64,000 nt of DNA from Marmoricola sp. URHB0036. Its GTDB lineage: Bacteria > Actinomycetota > Actinomycetes > Propionibacteriales > Nocardioidaceae. Shown here piece by piece: positions 8,997 to 57,819 of the stretch. Position numbers and translations under genes: made by a program. Location of the stretch: NCBI RefSeq assembly GCF_000426045.1, contig NZ_AUEP01000006.1, forward strand, positions 1 through 64,000, given 5' to 3'. Position 1 is the first letter of the stretch, and each line of letters opens with the position of its first letter. The notes beneath the pieces were generated by a model, which worked only from the letters and a program-made list of their open reading frames with translations, had not been told where the DNA came from and ran no database searches.

Positions 8997-9072
8997 GCGG
9001 ATGTAGCTCAGTTGGTAGAGCGCGACCTTCCCAAGGTCGATGTCGCGAGTTCGAATCTCGTCATCCGCTCCA
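8997..9072 (+). tRNA. tRNA-Gly (anticodon CCC)
   Basis: The cloverleaf is complete. The acceptor stem GCGGATG/CATCCGC, D-arm GCTC/GAGC, anticodon stem CGACC/GGTCG with loop TTCCCAA (anticodon CCC, 9030-9032), and T-arm GCGAG-TTCGAAT-CTCGT (one G-T pair) are all present. The discriminator T at 9069 is followed by an encoded CCA (9070-9072). The final A is also the first base of the ATG of the next gene. Confidence 0.97.
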
Positions 9073-9707
9073 TGAGTTTCAACGGCTTTCCCGACGCAGC
9101 GCTCGACTTCTACGACGACCTCGAGCTCGACAACACCAAGTCGTTCTGGCAGGCGCACAAGCACGTCTACGAGTCGGCCGTCCGCGACCCGATGCTCGCG
9201 CTGACCGGGCTGCTCGCCGAGGAGTTCGGCACCGCCAAGGTGTTCCGCCCCTACCGGGACGTGCGCTTCGCGAAGGACAAGACGCCGTACAAGAACCACC
9301 AGGGTGCCTTCGTGGCGGTCGGTCCGGCGACGGGCTGGTACGTCGAGATCGGCTCGCCCGGCGTACGTGTCGGTGGTGGCTACTACCACGCCGGCGGACC
9401 CGACCTGGCCCGGATCCGCACCGCCATCGACACCCAGCACTCCGGCGAGGAGCTCGCGCGGATCGTGGCGCGGCTGGAGAAGGGCGGATTCGAGATCCGC
9501 GGCGAACAGCTCAAGACCACGCCCCGTGGGTATGCCGCCGACCACCCCCGGATCGACCTGCTGCGCTACAAGTCGATGGCGCTCGGCAAGGCCTACGGCT
9601 TCGAGAACCTGGACACCGCGGCCCTGGCCGACCGAGTCCGCGACGACTGGCGCGCCCTCCGCCCGCTCGTCGAGTGGGTCGCCGCCCGGGTCGACATCGT
9701 CGGCTGA
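9072..9707 (+). CDS. DUF2461 family protein
   Basis: The 211-residue protein matches the DUF2461 (TIGR02453) family: FNGFPDAALDFYDDLE at the start, then FWQAHKHVYE, the conserved VFRPYRDVRFAKDKTPYKNHQGAF block and GGGYYHAG. Function is unknown for the family. The start is forced to the ATG at 9072 because the conserved N-terminus begins there and upstream sequence is tRNA. The A of the ATG is the terminal A of the tRNA CCA, and no ribosome site is possible outside the tRNA. The TGA stop ends one base before the left arm of palindromic element A. Confidence 0.93.
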   Translation: MSFNGFPDAALDFYDDLELDNTKSFWQAHKHVYESAVRDPMLALTGLLAEEFGTAKVFRPYRDVRFAKDKTPYKNHQGAFVAVGPATGWYVEIGSPGVRVGGGYYHAGGPDLARIRTAIDTQHSGEELARIVARLEKGGFEIRGEQLKTTPRGYAADHPRIDLLRYKSMALGKAYGFENLDTAALADRVRDDWRALRPLVEWVAARVDIVG

Positions 9708-9708
9708 C

Positions 9709-9775
9709 CGGATAGTCCAGAACGAAAAGCCGGCCAGAGCACGTCGATGAGCGGTGAAACGTTCTGGACTATCCG
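9709..9775. repeat. Palindromic repeat family A, copy 1 (67 bp)
   Basis: Two 16-base arms (CGGATAGTCCAGAACG at 9709-9724 and its exact reverse complement at 9760-9775) flank a 35-base loop. The same arms with the same loop length recur at 57509-57577. This copy fills the space between two convergent genes. The left arm starts 2 bases after the DUF2461 stop, and the right arm supplies the TAG stop of the SnoaL-like gene on the other strand. It could work as a bidirectional terminator, but the recurrence shows it is a dispersed element. Confidence 0.9.
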
Positions 9776-10224
9776 TCTTCGGGCTTGCGCAGGGTGGCCA
9801 TCGTGCGCTCGACCTCCCAGTGGGCGGCCATCGAGACCATCTTGCCCTCGTCGTTGACGCGGTAGACCGCGATCAGGTCGGTGTCCGCGAGGCTGCCGTC
9901 CTCGAGCACGGTCGAGAAGGTGCCGATGTTGGCGCAGGCGTTGCCGTTGGCGAAGGAGTCGCGGATCGTGAAGTGGAACTCCTTGACCGGCGCGATCGCC
10001 ATGTCCCAGAAGGCACTGACGCCCTCGGGACCGTGGTGGCCCTTGCCCTCGGGATCGAAGAAGGACGGCCCGACGGGGTCCTCGATGACGCAGTCCTCGG
10101 CCCACAGGGTGAGCCACTCGTCCTTCTGCTTGCGTGAGACCAGGTCGTAGGAGCGTTGGGAGAGGCGGCGTACGGGGTGGTCACCGTCGGGTGCTTCCCA
10201 GGTGACGAACTCTGACTCGATCAT
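9769..10224 (-). CDS. SnoaL/NTF2-like protein (ketosteroid isomerase fold)
   Basis: The 151-residue protein has the NTF2-like pattern: an N-terminal helix region (LSQRSYDLVSRKQKDEWLTLWAED), then CVIEDPVGPSFFDPEGKGHHGPEGVSAFWD, and beta strands ending in MVSMAAHWEVERTM. Small proteins of this fold are isomerases or hydratases or have unknown roles. A KstR-type box lies 9 bases upstream of the ATG, which suggests membership of the cholesterol/steroid catabolism regulon (inference). The stop TAG lies inside the arm of palindromic element A, so the element defines the C-terminus (KPEDG). Confidence 0.88.
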   Translation of the reverse strand: MIESEFVTWEAPDGDHPVRRLSQRSYDLVSRKQKDEWLTLWAEDCVIEDPVGPSFFDPEGKGHHGPEGVSAFWDMAIAPVKEFHFTIRDSFANGNACANIGTFSTVLEDGSLADTDLIAVYRVNDEGKMVSMAAHWEVERTMATLRKPEDG

Positions 10225-56406: not shown

Positions 56407-57819
56407 TCACGCCAGGTCGTGCACGAACTCCCCGAGCTGGGTCAGGTTGCGGCACTCGACCATGGGCATCACCAGGCCGTACTCGCGGGCCGCGGAGTCG
56501 CCGGTGTTCCAGTTGCGGGTGTGCTCGGGGTTGAGCCACCAGCTGTGCCGGGCGGCGTGCACGAGGTCCTTCACGACCGGCAGGGCGAGATCGGTGTGGT
56601 TCGAGCGCGCGTCGCCCAGCACCAGCAGGTTGGTCTTGGGAGTCAGTGCGTCGGCGTACTCCTCGGAGAAGCGGGTGAACGCCCGGCCGTAGTTGGTGCG
56701 GCCCCACAACGACGTGTAGCGCGCACTCGCGGCGAGGTCGGCCATCGTCTGCGCCGGGTCGCCACGGGTGTCGAACCGGCCGGTGACCTCGTGGATCTCG
56801 TCGACGAACGTGAACGCGCGGACCCGGTTGAACTGCTCGCGCAGCGCGAAGACCAGCATCAGCGTGAAGCTGGCGAAGTTGGCGACCGAGCCACTCACGT
56901 CGCACAGCACGACGAGATCGGTGCGCCCCGGGCGCTTCGGCTTGTGCCGGGTGTCCATCGGCACGCCACCGCTCGACATCGAGGCGCGCACGGTCCGGCG
57001 GAAGTCGAGGGGCCGGCCGCGACGGGAGTGCTGCTCGCGGCTGACCCGGGTCGCCAGGCGCCTCGCCAGCGGCTGGATCTCGCGGCGCATCAGCTCGAGG
57101 TCGGCCTTGCGGGCCGAGGTGAACTCGACCTGCTCGATGGCCGGGCGCACGGTGTGGCGGGCGACGTGCTCCGGGCCACGGACCTCGGCCGCGCGACGGC
57201 GTACCTCCGAGTCGACCAGCCCTTCGAACGCCCGCGCCTGCGCCTCGATCAGCCGCCGCATCGACGGATCCTGCCCGGTGTCGGCACCGAGCAGCCCGGC
57301 CAGCGCCCGGTCGACGAGCTCGTCGGGTGAGACCCGGTTCATCACGTTGTACGACGACCACCGCTGCTCCCCCGGCCCGCGCCCCCGGATCAGCCCGAAC
57401 CGCTGCACCGCCTCCCGCGCCAGCATCGCCAGCGCGTCGGGATCCCCCATCGCCATCGCCGTCGCCAGCGCCTCGCGGAAGTCGGCCAGCGCCTGGGGAC
57501 CGTCGTTTCCGGATAGTCCAGAACGCTCTGCCGCTTCACCAGCGTCCTCAGGCGGCGTTTCGTTCTGGACTATCCGGTCCGTCGAGTGCCCCTCCCCGAT
57601 CAGCGCCGGGAAGTAGAGGTCGAAGACCTGGTCGAAGCCGGGGCGGTGGTTCTGGCGCTTGACCAGCGTCGCGGCGTACGCCGCCCGCAACGACTCGCGC
57701 TCCCCGATCCCGAGGGCATCGATCGCCTCGACGGCGTCCAGGCCCTCGGCGAGCGAGACCGGCAACCCCGCGCTGCGCAGCGCCTCGACGAACTCGATGT
57801 GCCGGTCGAGAAGGCTCAC
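56407..57819 (-). CDS. CoxE-like VWA-domain protein with an in-frame palindromic insert
   Basis: The 470-residue protein has an N-terminal helical region and a C-terminal von Willebrand A domain with the MIDAS motif DVSGSVANF. Later VWA elements include TFVDEIHEV, TNYGRAFTRF and LVLGDARSN. It pairs with the MoxR ATPase, overlapping its stop by 4 bases (GTGA at 57816-57819); such pairs remodel or insert metal centres, as CoxD/CoxE do for CO dehydrogenase. Residues about 81-104 (DRIVQNETPPEDAGE to RSGLSG) are encoded by the 69-bp palindromic element A, which keeps frame, in a linker where it is tolerated. Confidence 0.92.
   Translation of the reverse strand: MSLLDRHIEFVEALRSAGLPVSLAEGLDAVEAIDALGIGERESLRAAYAATLVKRQNHRPGFDQVFDLYFPALIGEGHSTDRIVQNETPPEDAGEAAERSGLSGNDGPQALADFREALATAMAMGDPDALAMLAREAVQRFGLIRGRGPGEQRWSSYNVMNRVSPDELVDRALAGLLGADTGQDPSMRRLIEAQARAFEGLVDSEVRRRAAEVRGPEHVARHTVRPAIEQVEFTSARKADLELMRREIQPLARRLATRVSREQHSRRGRPLDFRRTVRASMSSGGVPMDTRHKPKRPGRTDLVVLCDVSGSVANFASFTLMLVFALREQFNRVRAFTFVDEIHEVTGRFDTRGDPAQTMADLAASARYTSLWGRTNYGRAFTRFSEEYADALTPKTNLLVLGDARSNHTDLALPVVKDLVHAARHSWWLNPEHTRNWNTGDSAAREYGLVMPMVECRNLTQLGEFVHDLA
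57509..57577. repeat. Palindromic repeat family A, copy 2 (69 bp), inside the CoxE-like coding region
   Basis: Two perfect 17-base arms, CCGGATAGTCCAGAACG (57509-57525) and its reverse complement (57561-57577), flank a 35-base loop, the same loop length as copy 1 at 9709-9775. The loop is about half identical to the reverse complement of the copy 1 loop by eye (shared AAA-GCCG and AGCGG ends). At 69 bases it equals 23 codons and keeps the CoxE-like frame open. It would form a strong hairpin in the middle of the mRNA. Confidence 0.93.

Follow-up and report, generated by a model that had tools for sequence, protein, structure and literature searches.

The window analysed here is the whole 64,000-nucleotide stretch of Marmoricola sp. 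URHB0036 (contig NZ_AUEP01000006.1, positions 1 to 64,000). It carries two copies of a 69-bp hairpin element, one in frame inside a gene for a CoxE-like VWA protein and one between convergent genes:

57,509–57,577, no strand assigned: 69-bp hairpin element, in-frame copy in the CoxE-like VWA gene (exact 17-bp arms; fold; family member).
57,509–57,525, plus strand: left arm CCGGATAGTCCAGAACG, consisting of the RTAGTCC core and the tag AGAACG (sequence).
57,561–57,577, minus strand: right arm, exact reverse complement of the left arm (sequence).
57,530–57,535, plus strand: left half of the inner stem, GCCGCT (fold; pair counts over 30 copies).
57,551–57,556, plus strand: right half of the inner stem, GGCGGC (fold; pair counts over 30 copies).
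56,410–57,819, minus strand: gene of the CoxE-like VWA protein hosting the element, 470 amino acids (stop codon excluded), with the insert reading RIVQNETPPEDAGEAAERSGLSG.
9,708–9,776, no strand assigned: 69-bp hairpin element, intergenic, with convergent genes on either side and 16 of 17 arm pairs.
9,012–9,707, plus strand: gene ending directly at the left edge of the intergenic element, its stop codon at distance 0 (our own codon-usage gene caller).
9,769–10,224, minus strand: gene that takes its TAG stop codon from the element's right arm (same gene caller; CTA at 9,769–9,771).

A sequence-only reading had described the first copy as an in-frame palindrome of 23 codons, and it was correct: positions 57,509–57,577 comprise CCGGATAGTCCAGAACG, 35 nt and CGTTCTGGACTATCCGG, giving perfect 17-bp arms and 69 bp in frame. 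The insert falls at approximately residues 81–104 of the host protein, well ahead of the VWA domain as had been noted (VWA_CoxE, PF05762, residues 244–462, E 5.2e-45). The second copy is present outside genes as claimed; it spans 9,708–9,776, one base more at each end than the 9,709–9,775 given before, with 16 of 17 arm pairs. At gathering scores, the sole Rfam match in the window is one tRNA; a tRNA gene at 8,997–9,069 lies about 640 bp from the intergenic element. Identification as an integron attC site or a CRISPR was set aside on inspection of the element.

Folded as single-stranded DNA, the element has a z-score of −7.7, and none of 200 shuffles was equally stable. Across 30 copies, the 17-bp arms (CCGGATAGTCC(A/C)GA...) are followed by 3–4 mostly unpaired positions, an inner stem of 6–7 bp of the GCCGCT or GGACCC type, and roughly 15 nt of loop. 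Conservation covers the arms and the inner stem, the loop is unrelated from copy to copy, and the length is nearly constant, all 30 copies measuring 69–70 bp. Paired cells amount to 88.3%, compared with 83.7% after shuffling and 27–43% when the pairing is slid. Two-sided pair changes occupy 33 cells versus 16.2 in shuffles, with 0 of 500 shuffles as high, although two subfamilies explain much of this; the number of pairs with such changes (7 versus 8.2 in shuffles) shows no excess. RTAG sits within the paired arm, i.e. it is not an unpaired 5' tag, and the consensus arm holds a stop codon in just one of three frames per strand.

In the organism's own genome (G000, 4.83 Mb in 22 contigs; G, C and L designate genomes, contigs and loci), a DNA search with the 69-mer led to many related places. 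Allowing up to 3 mismatches, the arm occurs 36 times forward and 34 times in reverse, against 7 and 8 for the reversed control. A covariance model of the 30 copies places at least 36 full-length elements in this genome (72 rows over both strands, 69 or 70 bp each, E ≤ 1.4e-5), a lower bound with 150 of about 5,900 first-look candidates scored. Three weak candidates of 33 were left out of the model (C19:67364, C14:72737, C9:171864), and C19:67364 returned as a weak match. Of 24 genus genomes, 16 also have model matches. The loose pattern TAGTCCN{46,48}GGACTA likewise occurs in 16 of the 24, with 4–31 places each and 0–2 for the reversed-pattern control; the exception in this count is G005, whose single match is not hairpin-like. 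The arms are thus not confined to the two places in the window, and the earlier suspicion that this palindromic element proliferates and contributes in-frame segments to proteins, in the fashion of the Rickettsia palindromic elements, looks right. The tag following RTAGTCC varies among genomes (e.g. GAGACG, GGCACG, CTGACG, GGAGCA): some have one in common and others, such as G004, carry several. As a separate observation, two adjacent elements with an identical loop at G150:C3:32072-32243 look like a recent tandem duplication.

Homologues of the CoxE host occur in 23 of 24 genus genomes. An alignment of the 21 sequences spanning the region (two fragments omitted) has a palindrome at the same linker in eight, judged by eye (G000, G002, G003, G004, G008, G009, G013, G015), and none in 13, so the segment is not universal among orthologues. 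Nor is the CoxE copy private to this species: it is common to eight lineages with differing arms. Further in-frame copies lie in an 846-residue protein with radical-SAM and CofH_C domains, which we infer to be FbiC (also in G002 and G009), in a TPP enzyme of MenD-like appearance (also in G013 and G014), in an MFS transporter (also in G002), and in an M20 peptidase of G004. The M20 copy has a counterpart at the matching place in G015, outside genes according to our gene caller. At the CoxE linker of L107, L109, L110 and L115 (G007, G020, G006 and G005), another inverted repeat or a single arm of the GGTTGAGCC...TGTCGAAACC type appears by eye to be present, as if this linker were tolerant of several hairpin families. 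The GGTTGAGCC...GAAACC-type repeat pattern was found in 3 of 365 loci and at 0 places in the window.

An all-against-all comparison of element loci revealed, in several genomes, a gene placed between two elements. Our seed set holds seven such partner proteins of 342–396 amino acids, one of the seven loci showing a single element; the typical protein has about 345 residues, and in seed loci a single ORF takes up the interval from one hairpin to the other. Partner homologues exist in 23 of 24 genus genomes, the strongest having on their flanks hairpins that bear one of their genome's tags. Synteny of the bracketed gene was seen in four genomes (L139, L145, L168, L182). In G004 the arms around one gene (L216) are of the AGACCAAGTAGCACC type and those around a second (L235) are TAGTCAGAGACGAAATGGC, the second bracket resembling the CoxE element of that genome.

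A wider genome scan gave 77 partner loci, nearly all from Nocardioides or Marmoricola and including five seed genes again (L260, L268, L271, L278, L282). Bracketing was assessed at the 73 loci with at least 330 bp on each side, four being dropped. Hairpins with matching arms lie both upstream and downstream at 55 of the 73, versus 15–23 (mean 19) when flanks are mixed between loci, these chance matches arising because many loci have the TAGTCC core in common. The other 18 have no matched bracket by our criteria, of which at least one (L276) is a miss of the criteria with hairpins present on both sides. Half-stem similarity over 24 nt has a median of 22 within a locus versus 13 between loci; 18 or more matches are reached by all 54 bracketed loci in the alignment, versus 218 of 2862 between-locus pairs. 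Arm distance tracks protein distance as well (Mantel 0.384 over 54 loci; largest of 2000 permutations 0.238), a correlation that may be due in part to shared ancestry.

Other bracket cores exist, e.g. GTATCTAGGGAC or GATCGTCCCTAACAG, and a number of brackets have no RTAG. In genomes lacking a hairpin-like TAGTCC match, the gene can be accompanied by different hairpins, to its left and right in G005, G018 and G019 and less clearly in G001. At E ≤ 1e-20, homologues are found in 130 of 149 family genomes and 174 of 293 order-sample genomes, bracketing being known for the named loci alone. There were none in 50,697 phage or 72,556 plasmid records, and a phage or plasmid origin of the partner was rejected on this ground.

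Several single loci deserve description. The longest partner ORF of the own genome begins inside the right arm of its upstream hairpin (L045:4041-4070), so that the bracket could overlap the translation start. In G003, 9 of 13 listed elements join two unlike arms, TCCAGGACG with TCCCTGACG, leaving a constant mismatch, and at L221 of that genome the hairpin next to the partner gene sits between the half-tags TCCAGGACG and TCCCTGACG. The strongest partner homologue of G007 is split over two frames (G007:C46:43238-44099) while 13 pattern copies persist, perhaps as an orphan population. G020 has four pattern copies and distant partner homologues only.

Profile searches with the partner returned few matches, and no Pfam family covers it convincingly. 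Pfam matched none of the seven seed proteins at E ≤ 1 and one of 71 proteins, weakly (DUF4283, 0.004); three C-terminal domains searched at E ≤ 10 gave one ENOD40 match at 0.32. One NCBIfam match at 0.18 is far under its cut-off, PHROGs gave one match at 0.23, and a sequence search of the PDB gave none at E ≤ 1. Assignment of the partner as DUF559, being without Pfam support, was replaced by the fold result. Predicted with AlphaFold2, the full-length protein reaches a pLDDT of 95.2 and the C-terminal domain 90.3. Among the Foldseek matches to this domain, a Toxoplasma mitoribosomal protein comes first (E 0.012) and I-Bth0305I, a homing endonuclease, second (3r3p_A, probability 0.99, TM-scores 0.60 and 0.71, E 0.05), followed at lower ranks by further mitoribosomal proteins, PvuRts1I and other nucleases; nothing reached E 0.001 or better. 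Residues S204, E207, N226, D241, G248, H258 and D267 are invariant in 71 of 71 proteins. EDxHD is the signature of the I-Bth0305I family, and the order of E207, D241, H258 and D267 presumably fits it, as judged from the order of these residues in the sequence. The spacing of D241 and H258 is similar to that of D51 and H69, given as the Vsr active-site pair in the FASTKD4 paper (PMC11879112).

Towards the middle of the protein, PADLOC models of AbiEi match three of four partner proteins (E 1.2e-6, 1.7e-6 and 0.0047; the fourth has none), the match to the Nocardioides speluncae protein at L261:3025-4062 covering residues 112–184 at E 1.2e-6. AbiEi is reported as an inverted-repeat binder (PMC7319586). 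The partner is accordingly predicted to combine an AbiEi-like middle with a C-terminal Vsr/EDxHD-type nuclease-like domain.

Could the partner nevertheless be a RAYT too divergent for Pfam, serving genuine REPINs? The anatomy would agree: a REPIN consists of two inverted REPs, and both the length and the pairing of the spacer between them matter (PMC3116915), and a gene plus its repeats resembles the REPtrons of PMC8266576. However, PF01797 (Y1_Tnp) has no match in the 24 genus genomes at E ≤ 0.01, with controls positive in 6 of 14 including E. coli; a RAYT/Y1 transposase was rejected as driver for that reason. The best C-terminal Foldseek matches are moreover of PD-(D/E)XK type, with no HUH/Y1 protein among the best 50, and we hold a hidden RAYT to be extremely unlikely.

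The bracket also tends to match the elements dispersed through its genome. In ten genomes with a readable bracket (G003 left out), 74 of 92 dispersed elements match the bracket of their own genome best or tied, while that of another genome fits better in 18 of 92. Mean bracket similarity is 17.8 of 20 versus 14.6 under label permutation (0 of 5000 as high). The tag TATCTAGGGAC, read from the brackets of L309, L330 and L291, occurs at 6, 9 and 11 places in those genomes (counts that include two, two and one bracket copies by exact match) and at 0 in five genomes with other brackets. In G018 (C44:40909-42156), bracket arms are matched but the exact core is found nowhere else in the genome. Altogether, gene and hairpin are strongly associated, as supported by bracketing, arm–protein tracking, the TATCTAGGGAC tag and the fit of dispersed arms, and weakened by G018.

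For signs of movement, element sites were compared between G002 and G009, which are about 94% identical around CoxE. Four of the 11 sites compared are occupied in one genome only (L163 and L167 in G002; L143 and L144 in G009) and seven are in common: L142, L165, L169, the FbiC-like site, two bracket copies and CoxE. The G002 elements L162 and L166 were fetched but not located in tiles, and stand outside the 11. Site-sharing counts lean towards sharing, since most loci were fetched around elements, and the element finder missed variant CoxE copies of G004 and G013 seen in the alignment. No target-site duplication is visible at the G002/G009 and FbiC-like sites, where the flanks are too diverged to define one.

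Two further explanations meet these data. The hairpins might be old, static operators of the bracketed regulator, their arms changing through regulator–operator co-evolution alone. Orthologous sites such as the CoxE, MenD-like and FbiC-like genes and the bracket itself speak for this, as does the inverted-repeat binding reported for AbiEi (PMC7319586). The sites present in G002 or G009 only argue against it, protein linkers and convergent-gene gaps are odd operator places, and the shared sites are over-represented by the way loci were fetched; we regard this explanation as very improbable. Alternatively, an ordinary DDE insertion sequence could have left the elements behind as MITE-like relics, with its terminal inverted repeats as the 17-bp ends and the bracketed gene as a passenger. 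Short, inverted, dispersed ends, near-constant length and positions that differ between close genomes would all be expected of such relics. But their loops are unrelated among copies while arms and inner stem are conserved, which is unlike the copies of one transposon, and the partner gene is bracketed in many species by arms that vary in step with it; no duplication of the target site came to light at the diverged flanks. An ordinary MITE was rejected because the copies have no common internal sequence of one source, and relics of the DDE kind are quite unlikely overall.

The stems themselves appear to change in concert. After the GAGACG tag, the next four bases of the arms are TTTG or TTCG in 18 of 22 cases in G002 versus 0 of 20 in G009, whose most frequent sequence here is AAAA (11 of 20, with the shared sites counted in); the p-value of 2e-8 counts both arms of one element as independent. 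Since these bases are genome-specific even at shared sites, and since the CoxE stems differ around a retained loop centre, the stems change together genome-wide. Conversion, re-insertion and selection for protein specificity cannot be separated as the cause.

Distances between elements and genes were taken from our simple codon-usage gene caller, not from an annotation. Of 30 copies in G000, 26 lie outside called genes: 14 between convergent, 10 between tandem and 2 between divergent genes; 4 are intragenic. The convergent share of 14 in 26 compares with 31 of 191 baseline gene pairs at the same loci (Fisher p 1.3e-6). Relatives behave alike, with 83 of 89 copies outside called genes (33 convergent, 45 tandem, 5 divergent, 6 intragenic) and 33 of 83 convergent against a baseline of 75 of 446 pairs (p 1.3e-8). 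Among element-facing gene 3' ends in relatives, 72 of 111 fall within −10 to +5 of the element. The element's own TAG is the exact gene end in 37 of 111, no more than the one third that random frames alone predict once a gene enters the arm.

This preference for 3' ends, with its convergent excess, raises an RNA-level explanation, in which the partner would be an RNA-binding or RNA-cutting regulator, the hairpins signals for 3'-end processing, stability or termination, and arm divergence a product of RNA–protein co-evolution. It would also accommodate the compensating changes in the hairpins, the mitoribosomal proteins among the top fold matches, and FASTKD4, which has a Vsr-like cavity and works on RNA (PMC11879112). 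Against it stand the in-frame copies within coding regions; in addition, copy positions that differ in close genomes need a copying mechanism beyond plain regulation. We judge it unlikely.

Our preferred explanation, which we think probable, is instead a non-autonomous, REPIN-like hairpin population serviced by an unrelated, bracketed nuclease-like protein. The population comprises roughly 4 to 36 copies per positive genome counted. The protein would most likely recognise the arms, either in duplex DNA, where they form an inverted repeat, or as a single-stranded hairpin at the replication fork, and would then nick or cut at the hairpin. Such a cut could allow a copy to be inserted at another place, or copies already there to be rewritten. 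Copies would persist where they are harmless, at stop codons, above all between convergent genes, and rarely in in-frame protein linkers; later, the loop would drift whereas the arms would keep their match to the protein. Binding and cutting of the hairpin by the protein, and a role of the protein in driving copying or mobilisation, are what we infer. Weighing against this explanation are the 18 loci lacking a matched bracket, G018, the split or distant homologues of G007 and G020, the 18 dispersed elements closer to a foreign bracket, the one protein with no AbiEi match, the absence of Foldseek matches at E 0.001 and of a visible target-site duplication, the number of pairs with two-sided changes, which does not exceed shuffles, and the share of TAG gene ends, which random frames alone would give. 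A bolder proposal, to which we give somewhat less than even credence, is that these non-autonomous hairpins form a new class of mobile DNA in bacteria, with a domesticated AbiEi–Vsr/EDxHD nuclease as their copier in place of a transposase; they would be rewritten in concert as its specificity shifts, and would give stop codons and occasional in-frame segments. The data suggest spreading DNA of a kind not yet described. Searches of an open-access library, in which subscription papers are largely missing, yielded no report of this element family in Nocardioides and none of a hairpin-bracketed Vsr-like gene.

The closest parallel is the REPIN/RAYT system. RAYTs that service REPINs are single-copy and vertically inherited (PMC8049555), gene and repeats together are termed REPtrons (PMC8266576), and HUH-type RAYTs are described as duplicating REPINs (PMC8049555, PMC8266576). 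Our elements share with that system dispersed, inverted, conserved ends around a spacer of constant length able to pair, a gene flanked by cognate copies (here an unrelated gene, at 55 of 73 loci), a mostly extragenic location (26 of 30 and 83 of 89) and arms that vary in step with the protein; in four genomes the gene inside the bracket keeps its synteny, like vertically inherited RAYTs. They differ in that the 24 genus genomes have no Y1/HUH match, the partner being AbiEi-like and Vsr/EDxHD-like; in that there is no unpaired 5' GTAG tag, RTAG being stem-paired and usable as a stop codon; and in that other brackets carry other cores (GTATCTAGGGAC, GATCGTCCCTAACAG). With the same layout and a different enzyme, the system works like a REPIN system without being a member.

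Other likenesses are more partial. Rickettsia palindromic elements are also small palindromic repeats, many of them in frame inside ORFs (PMC3733652), and our in-frame copies in CoxE, FbiC-like, MenD-like, MFS and M20 genes recall them by description. They belong however to another phylum, whereas in our case genes harbour just 4 of 30 and 6 of 89 copies, and there is a candidate partner gene; the word Actinobacteria is absent from the main text of that survey. The EDxHD/Vsr-like homing endonuclease I-Bth0305I resembles the partner in its predicted C-terminal fold (Foldseek E 0.05), but here the gene is hairpin-bracketed, has an extra AbiEi-like part and gave no phage or plasmid match. Finally, AbiEi of the AbiE type IV toxin–antitoxin systems is matched by model at residues 112–184 of the L261 protein, whereas the partner has a nuclease-like C-terminal domain and one ORF fills the bracket in seed loci.

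We thus describe a REPIN-like layout in actinobacteria whose genus gave no RAYT-family match, built with a protein of another superfamily. The same layout with an unrelated protein suggests that hairpin-population systems evolved convergently. Homologues of the partner are widespread in the family and in the order sample, and the element also furnishes conserved enzymes with in-frame segments. The questions of who copies such hairpins and what keeps them become testable here on a single gene and a well-defined substrate of 69 bp.
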